NCBI GenBank assembly: GCA_024281075.1 | Contig: JAMXLK010000073.1 | Coordinates: 1-48,842, forward strand | Length of the DNA stretch: 48,842 bases | Source: Vulcanimicrobiia bacterium | GTDB lineage: Bacteria; Vulcanimicrobiota; Vulcanimicrobiia; Vulcanimicrobiales; Vulcanimicrobiaceae | Direction: 5' to 3' | Shown here: positions 2,410 to 10,933 of the stretch, piece after piece | Layout: every line of letters starts with the position of its first letter | Numbering within the stretch: the first letter of the stretch is position 1 | The notes under the pieces: generated by a model | Seen by the model: only the letters and a program-made list of their open reading frames with translations | Told to the model about the DNA's origin: nothing | Database searches by the model: none | Made by a program: the position numbers and the translations under genes

Positions 2410-3723
2410 ATGAAAGCGCCACAGGCGATTGTCGTCCTTGCGACGGCAATCGCCCTCGGGGCCGTCTGGCCGTGGTTCGCTGGGCGCAACGCGCGGGCGA
2501 GTTTGGTGCCGCTCGCGCCGATCCAGACTGATTACCTGCAACGTAATGCGCTCATCGCTTTTTACGAAAAACAAGCCCGCCGCGATACCACCGATCAGAT
2601 CACGCGTCGCATGCTGGGGGGTCAGTACCTACAAAGATTTCGCGAAACCGGCGACCTCAACGACGTCTCACGCGCGCTCGCCGTCGCGAAAGACTCGCTG
2701 CGACTGCAACCGCACGGCAACGTTCAGGCCCTCGGAGTCATCGCTTCCGGCGACATCGCGCTGCACCGCTTCACCGCCGCACTCGCCGCGGAAGAATCTG
2801 CCGTTGAAGCTGAACCGTCCGACGATAACTCGCGCGCGCAAGTAGTATCGATTCTCATGGAGATCGGCCGCTACGAGCGCGCCGCGCACATTCTTGCCCG
2901 GGCGCAGCAAACCGATCCGAACCCGACGTGGATGTCGATCCGCGCGCGATACGACGAAATTACCGGCGATTTGTTGGGAGCTCGCGTACAAATGGAGCGG
3001 GCCGCGGCGATCGTCGACCGCATCGTCGTCATCCCCGCTTACACGCGTTCGTGGTATCACATGCGTGAAGGGCAGCTCGCCTTCGAAGCGGGCGACACCG
3101 GAAGCGCCGTCACGCAGTTGGATGAAGCGCTGCGTATCTTTCCCGACAACGCCATGGCGCTGCTGGTCGAAGCAAAACTCTACCGCGCGCACCGCGATTG
3201 GCCACGCGCGCTTGCTGCGGCGACCCGCAGCGCCGAACTCTATCCGCTGCCGCAAGCGCTCGGCTACGAGGCGGACGCCCAGCGCGCGCTCGGCGATGGC
3301 GCCGGCGCGCGCCGAACCGACGCGCTCATTCGTGCCGAACAGCGCCTCTTGAACGCGCGCGGCGTTAACGATCGGCTGCTCGCAATGTACTACGCGGAGC
3401 ATCACGAGCATTTACAAGACGCACTCGTCGCGGCACGATCCGATCTAGTCAAGCGCGGCGACGAGATTTATGCCGACGATACTATGGCGTGGGTGCTTGC
3501 CGCGCTGGGGCGCTGGAACGCGGCGCGTGTCTACGCACTCCGGGCTACGCGATACGACACGGCGGATCCGGAGCTGCAGTATCATGCCGCCGTCATCGCG
3601 TGGCATACCGGACACGTAGCTGAAGCGCGGCGGCGGCTTCGCACGGCGCTGGCCGCGGACCCGCAGTTCCATCCGGTTTATGCCGACGATGCTCGACGGC
3701 TTCTTGCGGTGGCGGGCAAATGA
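2410..3723 (+). CDS. TPR-repeat exported protein
   Basis: 437 residues, starting three bases after the previous stop. The N-terminus has a hydrophobic segment (about 8-25) that could be a signal or membrane anchor. From about residue 65 to the end there are degenerate tetratricopeptide helices, for example FEAGDTGSAVTQLDEALRIF and RWNAARVYALRATRYD. No catalytic motif is seen. TPR proteins usually scaffold protein assemblies, and this one sits in the same run as the two DUF4331 halves and ends in an ATGA overlap with the NiCoT permease, so all probably act together at the envelope. Specific partner unknown. Confidence 0.8.
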   Translation: MKAPQAIVVLATAIALGAVWPWFAGRNARASLVPLAPIQTDYLQRNALIAFYEKQARRDTTDQITRRMLGGQYLQRFRETGDLNDVSRALAVAKDSLRLQPHGNVQALGVIASGDIALHRFTAALAAEESAVEAEPSDDNSRAQVVSILMEIGRYERAAHILARAQQTDPNPTWMSIRARYDEITGDLLGARVQMERAAAIVDRIVVIPAYTRSWYHMREGQLAFEAGDTGSAVTQLDEALRIFPDNAMALLVEAKLYRAHRDWPRALAAATRSAELYPLPQALGYEADAQRALGDGAGARRTDALIRAEQRLLNARGVNDRLLAMYYAEHHEHLQDALVAARSDLVKRGDEIYADDTMAWVLAALGRWNAARVYALRATRYDTADPELQYHAAVIAWHTGHVAEARRRLRTALAADPQFHPVYADDARRLLAVAGK

Positions 3724-4742
3724 CAATGCGCGCGAATCTGATTCGCCTGTACGGATTCCTGATCGGGCTAAACCTCACGGCGTGGGCGCTCGCATTATGG
3801 GCGTTTTGGTCGCATCCGATTCTGCTCGGAACGGCACTGCTTGCGTACACTTTTGGTCTTCGGCACGCGATCGACGCCGACCACATCTCCGCGATCGACA
3901 ACGCGACGCGCAAGCTCATGCAGGACCGCAAGAGTCCTCTCGGTGTCGGGCTCTTCTTTTCGTTGGGACATTCGACCGTCGTCGTGGCGCTCACCGTCGC
4001 CGTTGCGATTGGTGCTGCGGTGATCAAGGATCGGCTACCCGCACTACAGCAAGCCGGCACGCTGATCGGCACGTCGGTCTCGGCGGGCTTCTTATTGTTG
4101 ATCGGGGCGATCAACCTCACGGTCTTATTCGACATTTGCGGAGCATTCGGGCGCGCGCGTCGCGGCGAGACCGATGAAGGTTCGAAGCTCGACACAACAT
4201 TGAACCGCCGTGGTTTGCTGGGGCGCCTTTTTGCGCCGCTTCTGCAGATCGTCGATCAGAGCTGGAAGATGTATCCGATCGGCGTGCTGTTCGGACTGGG
4301 CTTTGACACCGCTACCGAGGTCGCGTTGCTTGGAATTGCGGCGGTCGAGGCCGGCAAAGGCCTTCCGGTCGTCGACATTTTGCTGTTTCCGCTGCTCTTT
4401 ACCGCCGGAATGTCGCTGATCGACACCACCGACGGCATCCTCATGCTCGGCGCGTACGGCTGGGCTTTCGTGAAACCCGTGCGTAAGTTGTACTATAACG
4501 CCGTGATCACGATGATCTCGGTCGTCGTGGCACTCGCCGTCGGCGGCATCGAAGCGATCGGCGTCGTTGCCGATCAGTTCCGGCTCAACGGCGGCATTTG
4601 GGATGCAGTGAGGCTGCTCAACGAAAACTTCGGACTCCTCGGCTTCATCATCGTTGCGCTCTTCATGGCGAGCTGGCTCATTTCAGCGGCAATGTATAAG
4701 GTACTCAGGTACGACGAACTGGAGCCGCGGCTTGGCTCATGA
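3720..4742 (+). CDS. nicT: NiCoT-family nickel/cobalt permease
   Basis: 340 residues, high-affinity Ni2+/Co2+ uptake permease of the HoxN/NixA family. Seen: the family signature RHAIDADHISAIDN (about residues 48-61) in the second membrane segment, LFFSLGHSTVV in the third, GLGFDTATEVALLGIAA, and LFTAGMSLIDTTDGILM. About eight membrane segments are predicted by eye, and the length is normal for the family. The start chosen is the ATG overlapping the preceding stop; another ATG lies two codons on. It is the second Ni/Co transporter family in the run, after NicO. The 3' end overlaps the convergent Fur-type gene by 6 bases. Nickel or cobalt specificity is not resolved. Confidence 0.9.
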   Translation: MTMRANLIRLYGFLIGLNLTAWALALWAFWSHPILLGTALLAYTFGLRHAIDADHISAIDNATRKLMQDRKSPLGVGLFFSLGHSTVVVALTVAVAIGAAVIKDRLPALQQAGTLIGTSVSAGFLLLIGAINLTVLFDICGAFGRARRGETDEGSKLDTTLNRRGLLGRLFAPLLQIVDQSWKMYPIGVLFGLGFDTATEVALLGIAAVEAGKGLPVVDILLFPLLFTAGMSLIDTTDGILMLGAYGWAFVKPVRKLYYNAVITMISVVVALAVGGIEAIGVVADQFRLNGGIWDAVRLLNENFGLLGFIIVALFMASWLISAAMYKVLRYDELEPRLGS

Positions 4743-5212: not shown

Positions 5213-7426
<2,214 letters not shown>

Positions 7427-7463: not shown

Positions 7464-8726
7464 ATGCAAGTGAACGTCATGCGTATCATAGCATTACTTG
7501 CATCCGCTCTCTTGCTGTCGGCGTGCGCGCACTTTTCGCAATCGCCGCTTCCAAGCACGCTCTCGAACGGCGCGTCGTCGCTGCGTCCGGCGAATGGGCC
7601 CTGGCTCTGCGGATCGCCGCCATCGCTTCAATCTCAGTCAAGCGCGATCGAATCGAACGCCGGAAGCGGCTACAAGAACATCTACAAATTCAAAGCGACG
7701 CCCGACGGCGGCTCACCATACGCCGGATTGCTGGCGCTCAACGGCAAGCTTTACGGCACGACGTATGCCGGCGGCAAAAACGGCTTTGGGGCAGTCTTCG
7801 AAACCAGTCCCACCGGCCAAGAACGCGTCGTCTACAGCTTCAAAGGTGGAGCGGACGGTGCGTATCCTTGCGCGGGCCTCATTGACGTCAACGGCAAGCT
7901 CTATGGTACCGCTGCGCAAGGCGGCGCACAAAACTGGGGCACGATCTACGAAGTCACCACGTCGGGGCAAGAGCGCACGCTCTATGCATTCAAGGCGCAG
8001 CCCGACGGTGCCGCGCCCTACGGGGCGCTGCTCGCGCTCAACGGAAAACTTTACGGCACGACGGTTGAAGGCGGAAAGTACGGTTACGGCGCGGTCTTCA
8101 CAAGCACGACGTCAGGTTCGAAGCACCTGATTTACAGCTTCCACGGCGGAAAGGACGGCGCGTACCCCTACTGTACGTTGATCGCAGTCAAAGACACGCT
8201 GTACGGCACCACCATGCAGGGCGGAGCTAACAACTGGGGCACGGCCTTTAGTCTGAGCACGGCGGGCCAAGAGCGCGTGCTCCATAGCTTCAAAGCACAG
8301 CCGGATGGTGCGTATCCGTTCGACGGTCTTACCGCGGTCGGCACCAAGTTATATGGCACCGCAAAGGAGGGCGGTTCGGCCGGTTACGGGGTCATCTTCT
8401 ACGTGACGGCGAGCGCTCAAGAGCACGTCGTTTATTCATTCAAAGGCGGAGCGGACGGCGCATATCCGTATGCAGGTCTCCTTGCGCTCAACGGCGTGCT
8501 GTACGGCACCACCTATCAAGGCGGAAAGCCCAATTGGGGAACGGTCTTTCAGCTTGCGTCCGGCAAAGAGACGGTGCTGCACGCGTTCCAAGCGCAGAAC
8601 AACGGCGCCACCGACGGCGCGTATCCGTTCGCAGCGCTGACCGCGGTGAGCGGCAAGGTGTACGGTACCGCCGAGGGCGGCGGTATCAACAGCGGCTGGG
8701 GAACGGTCTACACGTTTACGCCGTAG
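7464..8726 (+). CDS. GloVer-repeat beta-propeller lipoprotein
   Basis: 420 residues. A lipoprotein signal (LLASALLLSAC) is followed by a short linker and seven tandem repeats of about 50 residues, each with LYGT and GG plus a closing GxVF or GTxY, the choice-of-anchor GloVer type. Seven repeats of this size fit a seven-bladed beta-propeller. Repeats alternate between two kinds: odd ones read F-K-A-(Q/T)-P-D-G, even ones GG-x-D-G-A-Y-P with NWGT. The start has GGAGAG five bases ahead; an internal ATG at 7479 is an alternative. It probably sits on the cell surface or in the periplasm. No function is known for the family beyond likely binding. Confidence 0.85.
   Translation: MQVNVMRIIALLASALLLSACAHFSQSPLPSTLSNGASSLRPANGPWLCGSPPSLQSQSSAIESNAGSGYKNIYKFKATPDGGSPYAGLLALNGKLYGTTYAGGKNGFGAVFETSPTGQERVVYSFKGGADGAYPCAGLIDVNGKLYGTAAQGGAQNWGTIYEVTTSGQERTLYAFKAQPDGAAPYGALLALNGKLYGTTVEGGKYGYGAVFTSTTSGSKHLIYSFHGGKDGAYPYCTLIAVKDTLYGTTMQGGANNWGTAFSLSTAGQERVLHSFKAQPDGAYPFDGLTAVGTKLYGTAKEGGSAGYGVIFYVTASAQEHVVYSFKGGADGAYPYAGLLALNGVLYGTTYQGGKPNWGTVFQLASGKETVLHAFQAQNNGATDGAYPFAALTAVSGKVYGTAEGGGINSGWGTVYTFTP
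7683..8723 (+). repeat. Seven tandem coding repeats of about 150 bases
   Basis: These encode the seven GloVer repeats (about 49-54 residues each). The alternation of two repeat types gives a higher-order unit of about 300 bases, in the pattern A-B-A-B-A-B-A, suggesting growth by duplication of pairs. The last repeat carries a five-residue insertion. Confidence 0.75.
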
Positions 8727-8745: not shown

Positions 8746-9045
8746 CTACTCTTCGACTTGCTGCAGCCGGCCGGTCAGAAGTTGATACACCATCATGAAG
8801 TCACCGCAGAACGACAGTGCCGGATGCTCCAGCGTTTTGGGCTGGTTCTTTTCGAAGACCCAGTGCGACACGAACGCGGGAAGATAACCCAGCGCTAATC
8901 CGCCTAAGAGCCAGGCGGGACGCCGCATGGCGACGGCGCTCAATCCGACGGCCAGGCCACTGAGAAGGCCCGCTGCGTGCACGAGCTTCGTGCGGCGGTC
9001 CCGATGCGCGGCCAGATACTCGGGATAGAACTCTTCAAACGTCAT
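8746..9045 (-). CDS. DUF962 / Mpo1-like membrane protein
   Basis: 99 residues. Two hydrophobic hairpins (about residues 24-38 and 45-62) lie between conserved polar pieces FEEFYPEYLAAHRDRRTKLVH and SHWVFEKNQPKTLEHP, the pattern of the DUF962 family. Yeast Mpo1, of this family, is an iron-dependent dioxygenase of 2-hydroxy fatty acids, and the four conserved histidines (14, 23, 61, 74) are here, so a similar role is possible. The first in-frame ATG that gives the family's normal N-terminus was chosen; longer in-frame starts run into the neighbour. It follows the MCO-ZIP gene by 19 bases on the same strand and may be cotranscribed. Confidence 0.8.
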   Translation of the reverse strand: MTFEEFYPEYLAAHRDRRTKLVHAAGLLSGLAVGLSAVAMRRPAWLLGGLALGYLPAFVSHWVFEKNQPKTLEHPALSFCGDFMMVYQLLTGRLQQVEE

Positions 9046-9064
9046 GGTAGACGAATGATAACCG

Positions 9065-10933
9065 CTATCCGCCGTTGATGTCGATAAAGAGCTCGGTGGC
9101 GAGTGCGACGAGAAAGCCCACGCACATCGTCGCAGTAACTGCGCCCGTAAGGCCCGTGCGCCGCAGCACGCTCCAGAGCTCGCCGATGACGAAGACCAGC
9201 GCGCCGACCGCGATGGCGAGGAAGAACACCGCAAGCGTCGGCGAGTAAAACGTGTAGCCGATTATCGTTCCGATGAACGTCGGCCCACCGGCGACGAGCC
9301 CGGCCAATCCGATCTGCGCCCAGCTTGGAACGACGCGTCCGACGAGCGGCGCGGCGACGCCGAAGCCTTCGGTCGCGTTATGCAAGCCGAAGCCGATGAT
9401 GAGCGCCAAGGCGACTGCCGTGGCACCGGCGGCGGCCGATGCGCCGATGGCGAGGCCTTCGCCGAAGTTGTGCGCGCCGATTCCGACGGCAATCAAGGCG
9501 GCGAGCACGATGGGGTTTTCGGCGTGCATCGCGGCCTTGCGGGTAACATGCGTTGCGGCGCTGCCCAGGCCGACCAATCCGATCATCAAGCCGATCACGA
9601 AGACGGCGATCGGCGCAATCGGAAACGCGGCCGCACCGGCGTGCCAGGCGTTCAGTCCGCGCGAGATCGGTGCGATCGCGTTTTGCGCAATCTCGACGAC
9701 GAGATAGAGCAGAATCCCGATGGCGAGCGCGTTGAGCAACGCGACGGTCTGCGGCGTCAGGCGTCGCGCCCGAGCGATCGGCAGACCGAGAAAGATCGTG
9801 AAGCCCGCGACCGCGCCGAGCAGCACCGTCTCGCCGAAGCTCAATGCGCGCGTCGTTGATCCGGCGGTCGGCAACATCGCGCGATACATCGAGGCGAGCG
9901 TATTCGGCGTCCCGGCGTAATGAATAGCGGCGATGAGTCCGGCCGGCATTCCGCTGGAATCTTCGATATGATCCATCACGTGGCAGTGAATCAGCCACGT
10001 CCCGGGCTTTGCATCGGCCTTCACGACCACGTCGACGCGCTGTCCCGGCGAGATCAGCACCGTGTCCTCGACGTCGTGGTAATCGACCGGCGCCGCATCG
10101 CGCGCAACGATCTGCTGGTAGTGCCCGTGCGTGTGCATGGTGTGGAACTCTTCGCCCGAGATGTTGATCCAGCGAATGCGAAAGCGTTCGCCTCTGTGCA
10201 CCTCGAGCGCGCGCGTCGCCGGATACTCTTTGCCGTTGAGCGTGAAATGATTCTCCGCGCCGCTTTGAATTTGCCACGACGAGATCATCTGCAGAAAATC
10301 GTGCGTTACGCCGCGTTCGACCGGCCGCGGATTCGACGGTTCGACGACGATTGCGCCGTACAATCCGGAGTCGAGCATCGCTTGATCGTCGTGCGTGTGA
10401 TAGATAAACGTCCCCGGCTGATCGGCCACGAAGCGATAGACGAAGTGACCGCCGCGCGGAACGAGCGGTTGTGAGATGCCGCCGACGCCATCCATTGAGA
10501 CGGGGATGTCGTGCACGCCGTGCAGATGAATCGAGTCTTCCGTCGGGATGTCGTTGGTGAAGTCGATCGTGACCGTGTCGCCTTGCTTGACCTCGAGCAC
10601 CGGCCCCGGCACGACGCCGTTATACGTATTGGCCATGACGGTTAAGCCCGGTTTGAGCGTCCACGGAGCGGCGCGTTCGACGATGTGAAAAATGCGTTCG
10701 CGACCGCGTGACGCCGGAACCGCTTGGTACGCACCATCCGGACGGGCCACGAGCGGCGATTCGCCCGGAGCGGCCGTCGCAACGGGAATTGCCCCGCGAA
10801 GCGGCTGCAATCCGAGCGCGGTCGAGTTGGGCGAACCGCCTTCGTCCCCGTCGGCGAACGCTCGCACGGGGAGTAGGAGAAGCAGTAAAAACCCGGCGAC
10901 TAGGCCGGCGGACCGAAGCCGGAAGCGACCCAT
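9065..10933 (-). CDS. Multicopper oxidase fused to a ZIP metal transporter
   Basis: 622 residues in one frame. A signal or anchor segment (about 8-27) precedes a multicopper oxidase part (about 75-340) with all four copper motifs: HLH at 136-138, YHTH at 178-181, HTMHTHGH at 264-271 and HCHVMDH at 316-322. From about residue 365 to the end there are roughly eight membrane segments containing HNFGEG (488-493) and HNATEG (518-523), the paired metal-binding motifs of ZIP/ZupT transporters. So an exported oxidase domain is tethered to its own metal permease, a one-chain analogue of the Fet3-Ftr1 oxidase-permease idea. Substrate is unknown; Fe2+ or Mn2+ is suggested by the DtxR-like palindrome at the start codon. 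No stop, frameshift or composition change marks the junction. Confidence 0.88.
   Translation of the reverse strand: MGRFRLRSAGLVAGFLLLLLLPVRAFADGDEGGSPNSTALGLQPLRGAIPVATAAPGESPLVARPDGAYQAVPASRGRERIFHIVERAAPWTLKPGLTVMANTYNGVVPGPVLEVKQGDTVTIDFTNDIPTEDSIHLHGVHDIPVSMDGVGGISQPLVPRGGHFVYRFVADQPGTFIYHTHDDQAMLDSGLYGAIVVEPSNPRPVERGVTHDFLQMISSWQIQSGAENHFTLNGKEYPATRALEVHRGERFRIRWINISGEEFHTMHTHGHYQQIVARDAAPVDYHDVEDTVLISPGQRVDVVVKADAKPGTWLIHCHVMDHIEDSSGMPAGLIAAIHYAGTPNTLASMYRAMLPTAGSTTRALSFGETVLLGAVAGFTIFLGLPIARARRLTPQTVALLNALAIGILLYLVVEIAQNAIAPISRGLNAWHAGAAAFPIAPIAVFVIGLMIGLVGLGSAATHVTRKAAMHAENPIVLAALIAVGIGAHNFGEGLAIGASAAAGATAVALALIIGFGLHNATEGFGVAAPLVGRVVPSWAQIGLAGLVAGGPTFIGTIIGYTFYSPTLAVFFLAIAVGALVFVIGELWSVLRRTGLTGAVTATMCVGFLVALATELFIDINGG

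Follow-up and report, generated by a model that had tools for sequence, protein, structure and literature searches.

A gene joining a two-domain multicopper oxidase to a ZIP-type transporter in a soil bacterium, with an IdeR/DtxR-like palindrome at its start codon

The yeast ferroxidase-permease Fet3-Ftr1 combines a three-domain oxidase with a permease of the Ftr1 family. ZIP transporters carry divalent ions, and we know of no case of a member of the ZIP family working with a ferroxidase. Bacterial Fe(II) uptake through FtrABCD, in Brucella and others, uses a periplasmic copper-oxidase-related protein and a permease (in the consulted part of PMC11966278). In ammonia-oxidising archaea, adjacent genes encode the multicopper oxidase (MCO) MCO1 and a ZIP-type permease (NVIE_000600/000590), for which copper uptake has been proposed (PMC7785015, sections consulted), and linked but separate oxidase and ZIP genes are thus already in print. 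The original prediction for the gene described here set a fused form against separate partners such as Fet3 and Ftr1 and knew of no described example. Separate partners do exist, as unfused MCO and ZIP genes on plasmids and in ammonia-oxidising archaea, and a full-text literature search, with most subscription papers outside its scope, found no description of a fused MCO-ZIP protein. New here are the TTAGGNNNNCCTAA site before the fused gene, the linkage of a DtxR gene to it in the sister family f3, and the co-occurrence of the site with a Cyc2-like protein.

The window, i.e. the whole stretch of 48,842 nucleotides that was analysed, comes from a soil bacterium of the Vulcanimicrobiia (contig JAMXLK010000073.1). 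The coordinates predicted for a continuous 622-codon gene, 9065-10933, proved right, and the strand is the minus strand: the codons run unbroken from 10933 to 9065, and the plus strand of the same interval has stops in that frame. Every motif named in advance was found, namely HLH (residues 136-138), HTH (179-181), HTMHTHGH (264-271), HCHVMDH (316-322), HNFGEG (488-493) and HNATEG (518-523). The features are collected in Table 1. A model of the whole protein has a mean pLDDT of 86, and a sigma-70 scan gave no match at the start of the gene. On the 3' side of the fused gene the window carries an Mpo1-like gene (8746-9234), a repeat-rich protein without a Pfam match (7464-8726), a peroxidase-family gene (5219-7426) and a NicO nickel transporter gene (3720-4742).

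Table 1. Position of the fused gene, its parts and its putative operator in the window, with one related locus lacking the ZIP half.
Feature	Position	Strand	Basis or content
Fused gene, 622 codons + stop	9065..10933	-	signal peptide, two-domain multicopper oxidase, Met-rich linker, ZIP transporter
Probable operator TTAGGCATACCTAA	10934..10947	-	abuts ATG; part of 19-bp IdeR/DtxR box
Likely signal peptide, aa 1-27 (MGRFRLRSAGLVAGFLLLLLLPVRAFA)	10853..10933	-	read by eye; helix 2-20 in model
Two-domain multicopper oxidase, aa 80-340	9914..10696	-	Pfam; PDB best 2zwn, E 9e-49; Foldseek best 2zwn, then 3g5w
HCHVMDH, aa 316-322	9968..9988	-	alignments of related rows
Met-rich linker, aa 341-365	9839..9913	-	composition over 44 fused rows
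ZIP transporter half, aa 366-622, eight helices	9068..9838	-	profile search, AlphaFold2 model, Foldseek
HNFGEG, aa 488-493, ZIP metal site, TM4	9455..9472	-	H, N, E invariant in 57/57 rows; aligned to BbZIP H-N-x-x-E
HNATEG, aa 518-523, ZIP metal site, TM5	9365..9382	-	H, N, E invariant in 57/57 rows; aligned to BbZIP Q-D-x-x-E
L118, oxidase orthologue without ZIP	G128:C1:1898000-1903000

The domain search that the prediction had proposed was run on the translation and matched Cu-oxidase_3 at residues 93-201 (E 2e-31) and Cu-oxidase_2 at 221-325 (E 3e-28). The closest PDB sequences to the oxidase are 2zwn, named a two-domain laccase, and 3g5w, and the same pair tops the fold search. Conservation was read from an alignment of 44 fused proteins (the window, 33 named loci and 10 copies from genomes of the phylum, with near-copies and cut or broken copies excluded). 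All four His-rich motifs of the Cu-oxidase domains are present; H136, H138, H179, H181, H264, H267, H269, H318, H322 and C317 are invariant in the 44 rows, and H316 is kept in 43. HCHVMDH presumably supplies the ligands of the type-1 and type-3 copper in domain 2. The type-1 Cys is confined to domain 2, being C317 in every row, an arrangement that we take to define the "type B" two-domain multicopper oxidases, and position 180, where 2zwn has the Cys of HCH, is Thr in 37 rows and Ser in seven. Position 329, our guess for the axial place of the type-1 copper and presumably two residues later than the axial Met of known oxidases, is Met in 29 rows, Gly in ten, His in four and Leu in one. A copper nitrite reductase was considered and rejected, as the NCBIfam model scores 75 bits against a cut-off of 296 and domain 1 carries no Cys.

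Between the two halves lies a linker rich in methionine: over the 44 rows Met makes up 12.3% of residues 341-364, compared with 2.7% of the oxidase and 1.9% of the ZIP half, and 35 of the rows have at least three Met there. The enrichment is highest in residues 349-364, a stretch picked after the data had been seen (16.4%, compared with 1.1-1.8% in four other stretches, including the first eight residues of the linker). We regard this linker as the strongest sign for copper, which is a serious rival to iron as the metal handled. In such a system the oxidase would convert Cu(I) to Cu(II), the linker would hold Cu(I), and the ZIP would import Cu(II) or move it away. The same idea has been proposed, as a hypothesis, for Nitrososphaera, in which MCO and ZIP genes adjoin each other (PMC7785015, sections consulted), and metal-resistance genes stand beside two of the four fusions of reversed order described below. 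Against it stand the DtxR-type palindrome and the repressor ligands of iron type, also described below, and with these in the balance we consider a copper system unlikely.

The C-terminal half was predicted to be a ZIP, for which the scores of the single sequence are weak. Pfam Zip matches residues 470-580 with E 7e-7 and 29.1 bits, short of the curated cut-off of 35.1, and a single-sequence search of the PDB reached BbZIP, the bacterial ZIP of solved structure, only at E 1.6, ranked under chance matches to proteasome. The only PDB matches of a 30-row profile were five BbZIP sequences (best E 3.7e-12), and Foldseek of the AlphaFold2 model of this half (mean pLDDT 91, eight helices) gave BbZIP the first ten places (best E 6e-6, TM-score by query length 0.54-0.62), the next protein following at E 0.09. 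Profile and fold thus both pick BbZIP, and a non-ZIP C-terminal half is ruled out by these two matches. The number of Lys and Arg residues per sequence is 2.0-2.5 in loops 1-2, 3-4 and 7-8, 0.8 in loop 5-6, and 0-0.6 in the even loops and the C-terminus. Since the positive charge lies in loops 1-2, 3-4, 5-6 and 7-8, the N-terminus is predicted to point outward, and the oxidase half should therefore face the outside.

The same architecture was sought in 149 genomes of the phylum, with a match defined as E<=1e-30. Matches were obtained in 80 genomes and none at this threshold in the other 69; in 70 of the 80, as read from the match list, a single open frame contains both halves. Among these 70, 64 copies are nearly complete and six more are partial in both halves, five of them ending at a contig edge (G011, G072, G073, G030 and G031), the sixth being that of G133. 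Elsewhere, G134 spans both halves with one internal TAG, the halves are split over frames in two genomes (G130, G137), a single half lies at or near a contig edge in three (G085, G110, G120), and three have other oxidases only (G141, G146, G148). The reading frame is kept in relatives at 45-91% identity and is therefore neither a chance frame nor an assembly join; this conservation, with the genomes of the phylum, rules out a frameshift or assembly artefact. Pfam, the 30-row profile, the fold match and the kept frame together bear out the in-frame fusion of oxidase and ZIP. The named loci of at least 60% identity are mostly from Candidatus Eremiobacterota MAGs.

In the four genomes searched with Pfam Zip for this purpose (G000, G010, G013 and G138) the fused gene is the sole match, and the profile of the ZIP half (E<=1e-8) found no such ZIP in the class outside the places of the fused gene; it gave weak matches in shorter frames in six genomes of other classes. 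In one near relative with a one-contig genome, G128, the oxidase continues into a tail rich in Met and one membrane helix, without a ZIP, and a Pfam Zip search of this genome gave no match. The replacement of the ZIP by one helix in G128 is what would be expected if the two halves shared no chemistry, the ZIP serving mainly as a membrane anchor for a laccase or the fusion merely co-locating unrelated activities. This is the least probable of the readings that we weigh, given that none of the six ZIP ligand positions varies across the 57 rows of fused and free ZIPs and that the same two domains also occur in the reverse order and as adjacent gene pairs. In the neighbourhoods of 44 named fused loci, antisense frames included, no ORF family recurs at more than eight, so the context there names no metal.

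The perfect palindrome TTAGGNNNNCCTAA occurs once in the window, where it touches the start codon, and it is the sole match even when one mismatch is allowed (0.16 expected). The published IdeR/DtxR box is TTAGGTTAGSCTAACCTAA, which overlaps promoters under repression (PMC10317159, in the part consulted); TTAGGNNNNCCTAA has the form of the first 14 bases of this box, TTAGG-N4-SCTAA. The full 19-bp box is not present, the best score in the window being 16/19, which none of 100 shuffles equalled. The TTAGG/CCTAA operator feature is present at the promoter in a 14-bp form, which we read as the probable site of one dimer. A subset of the fused loci provided 38 upstream regions (the window, 31 named loci with approximate starts and six f3 operons), in which all ten fixed bases are matched in 24, nine in 11, eight in one and six in two; in shuffled regions the frequency of a full match was 0.0001. 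Each of 41 whole genomes contains 0-3 exact copies of the pattern, which gives 55 places compared with 52 for the pattern read backwards, so that the evidence lies in placement and not in number. Where the 5' end is readable, 26 of 32 genomes, the window's own included, have an exact TTAGGNNNNCCTAA ahead of the fused gene or operon: 20 of 20 in families f1/f2 and 6 of 12 in f3.

A candidate regulator is encoded beside the gene in f3, where each of the 12 genomes carries a DtxR gene immediately 5' of the fused gene, with a clear stop/start overlap in four of the six enlarged loci. The ligand positions are Met, Cys, Glu and His in all ten aligned f3 regulators and in L066. Met10 and Cys102 are described as specific to IdeR and as raising iron selectivity, MntR having Asp/Asn and Glu at these places (PMC10317159, in the same part). 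Compared with solved proteins, the f3 regulator L023 is closest to the IdeR-type 7b24 (E 4e-26) and 1fx7 (E 2e-25), and matches SloR (5e-18), ScaR (4e-16) and MntR (8e-10) more weakly. In the surveyed genomes of f1/f2, those of the window's own genus among them, no DtxR match adjoins the fused gene. Two DtxR genes were found in the window's genome, both outside the window. C136 has Met/Cys/Glu/His ligands of iron type and an adenosine-deaminase-like gene nearby (both by eye), the latter as in three of the six enlarged f3 loci. The other, C106, has Asp/Glu ligands of manganese type and stands in tandem with Nramp. C136 resembles the f3 operon regulator more closely (E 4e-55, versus 3e-18 for C106) and is the likely controller of the fused gene here; the f3 regulators and C136 both carry iron ligands of Met10/Cys102 type.

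Some observations on these regulators suit manganese. The NCBIfam MntR model outscores the DtxR model on both L023 (129 and 105 bits) and C136 (157 and 117 bits), all four scores being far under the cut-off, and the regulators near three of the unfused gene pairs described below (L112, L113 and L115) all show Asp in place of Met10 and, respectively, Asp, Glu and Asp in place of Cys102. ZIPs, moreover, are divalent-metal carriers. The protein could accordingly be a redox filter, in which the oxidase would remove Fe(II) or Cu(I) at the pore and the ZIP would import Mn(II) or Zn(II). The Met and Cys ligands of the f3 regulator upstream of the fused gene speak against this, as does the separate Mn-type DtxR in tandem with Nramp in the window's genome, and we judge a manganese or zinc filter to be quite unlikely.

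By locus or position, 45 of the 55 palindrome places were inspected: 26 lie before the fused gene or operon, 14 before a CxxCH protein and five before neither. The 14 are thus the majority of the 19 other sites, and the protein that they precede resembles the iron oxidase Cyc2. It has about 370 residues, one CxxCH and, by eye, a likely signal peptide, and many copies begin AIPLFAHQY-GVT-CEKCH-SVIPHL. Cyc2 is a fused cytochrome-porin iron oxidase with AXPXFAR[Q/K][T/Y] five residues before CXXCH, PXL after it and a length of at least 365 residues (PMC8406198, in the part consulted). The Arg of this motif is absent from every copy; with the Arg position left free, the motif is matched at 9 of the 14 places (12 of 17 rows, with three places entered twice). 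PxL is present in all copies, three residues separate the motif from CxxCH, and the length of some copies falls slightly short of 365 residues. Pfam, NCBIfam and the PDB hold no useful relative. Since the Arg is lacking, the spacing is three and some copies are short, we label the protein Cyc2-like rather than an established Cyc2.

Conserved copies with TTAGGNNNNCCTAA upstream are L186:2220-3329, L188, L192, L185 (C97 of the window's genome), L154, L159 and L164; the copy at C97 is cut by the contig end and has the palindrome 14 bp before its start. Exact palindromes before neither gene are those of L175, L176, L177, L183 and L184 (C101 of the window's genome), the C101 palindrome lying between a lipoprotein-like ORF and a cyclophilin-type gene. 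The Eremiobacteria may have a roughly two-part iron-scarcity regulon, in which an IdeR-type repressor would control both a ferroxidase-ZIP importer and an outer-membrane Cyc2-like cytochrome-porin. We offer this tentatively and with considerable doubt; if it were true, iron oxidation would be coupled to uptake rather than to energy.

The conserved join and the iron-repressor-like site suggest a one-piece, iron-controlled uptake machine. The reading that we prefer is that of a one-polypeptide, iron-repressed metallo-oxidase/permease, a counterpart of the ferroxidase-permease pair, and we put its chances of being right and wrong at about equal. It would be an inner-membrane protein with a periplasmic two-domain oxidase at the N-terminus, a ZIP divalent-metal permease at the C-terminus and a short Met-rich linker between them. 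The gene would be repressed when iron is sufficient and the protein made when iron is scarce. At the permease mouth the oxidase would then act on Fe(II), or less likely on Cu(I) or Mn, and metal would be imported through the permease, the identity of the metal and the direction of transport both being our inference. After oxidation, either the oxidised ion would be passed on, or a competing ion would be cleared, leaving entry to the right divalent metal only. Oxidation outside followed by hand-over to the transporter, as originally imagined, fits the predicted outward position of the oxidase and the DtxR-type control. With ZIPs being carriers of divalent ions, a hand-off of Fe(III) would be unusual, and this keeps the filter role in play.

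Iron is favoured by the regulator ligands, the palindrome and the Cyc2-like partner. Several findings count against the preferred reading: G128 has no ZIP, 69 of the 149 genomes have no match and 6 of the 12 f3 operons have no exact palindrome; the Met-rich linker and the metal-resistance neighbours in the Deinococcota point to copper or other metals; and the NCBIfam MntR model outscores DtxR on the regulators.

Outside the phylum, the two domains occur in one frame in the reverse order, ZIP-oxidase, in Alicyclobacillus acidiphilus, A. cellulosilyticus, a Deinococcales MAG and a Deinococcus plasmid (L086, L101, L107 and L111, the last with the RefSeq name "multicopper oxidase domain-containing protein" only). 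Such fusions look rare: at E<=1e-25 they were found in 2 of 59 genomes from the order of A. acidiphilus and in 1 of 111 from the class to which the Deinococcales MAG belongs. The two Deinococcota loci have P-type ATPase, DUF305, CDF and ArsR genes as metal-resistance neighbours. If the C-terminus of the ZIP is outside, the oxidase of these fusions would also be outward.

Unfused MCO and ZIP genes lie side by side on bacterial and haloarchaeal plasmids; among the best 40 of 3,695 plasmid records matched, 31 name both MCO and transporter genes. In the five gene pairs that were read the oxidase comes first in all five, and a DtxR gene is near in four (with one gene between in L112). At the free ZIP loci a DtxR gene lies in or beside the ZIP stretch in 9 of 32, with mixed ligand types; these loci, whose ZIPs belong to the same subfamily and come from other phyla, are L076, L079, L084, L094, L096, L098, L100, L104 and L106. 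A different fused protein, L117:3029-4993 on a plasmid of Variovorax sp. RA8, has DUF4396 N-terminal to a similar oxidase, with cueR, a P-type ATPase and a heavy-metal two-component system as neighbours.

A first ZIP tree had implied two origins of the MCO-ZIP order, a result that vanished once the distant ZIPs of the gene pairs and the long row L105 were left out. In the reduced tree the MCO-ZIP order forms one clade (support 86/88, not starred), and one common clade of both gene orders is not rejected (p 0.16). In the oxidase tree the free oxidase L127 groups with the ZIP-oxidase fusions (100/99). The reversed order and this grouping are the basis on which we speak of separate fusions.

The join of oxidase and ZIP, found in both orders and in unrelated lineages, is natural evidence for the two acting together, and it bears on the MCO and "metal transporter" gene pairs of bacteria and haloarchaea. 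One expressible protein offers a direct test bed for the hand-off of metal between oxidase and carrier, and the regulatory site makes iron the first metal to try.

Compared with these systems, the ZIP-MCO fusions of Alicyclobacillus and the Deinococcota share with the window's fusion the same two domains in one frame, but they have the reverse order and form a separate clade, with metal-resistance surroundings in the Deinococcota loci and not in Alicyclobacillus. The pairs of Deinococcus, Rubrobacter, Arthrobacter, Chroococcidiopsis and haloarchaea have the oxidase first and the "metal transporter" second, as in the window's fusion, but they are unfused, each half groups in a clade separate from that of its fused counterpart, and the regulator ligands are unlike the iron type in the three read. 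NVIE_000600/000590 likewise link an oxidase to a ZIP-type permease with a proposed role in uptake, but as separate genes and with copper as the metal proposed (in the sections consulted of PMC7785015). FtrABCD differs in having four components and an Ftr1-type permease (in the consulted part of PMC11966278). Like Fet3-Ftr1, the window's gene pairs a multicopper oxidase on the outside with a metal permease, here under control of iron type; its product is, however, one polypeptide with a two-domain oxidase and a ZIP in place of an Ftr1-family permease. The fused protein may therefore work like Fet3-Ftr1 but, its transporter half being a ZIP, is not a member of the Fet3-Ftr1 family.
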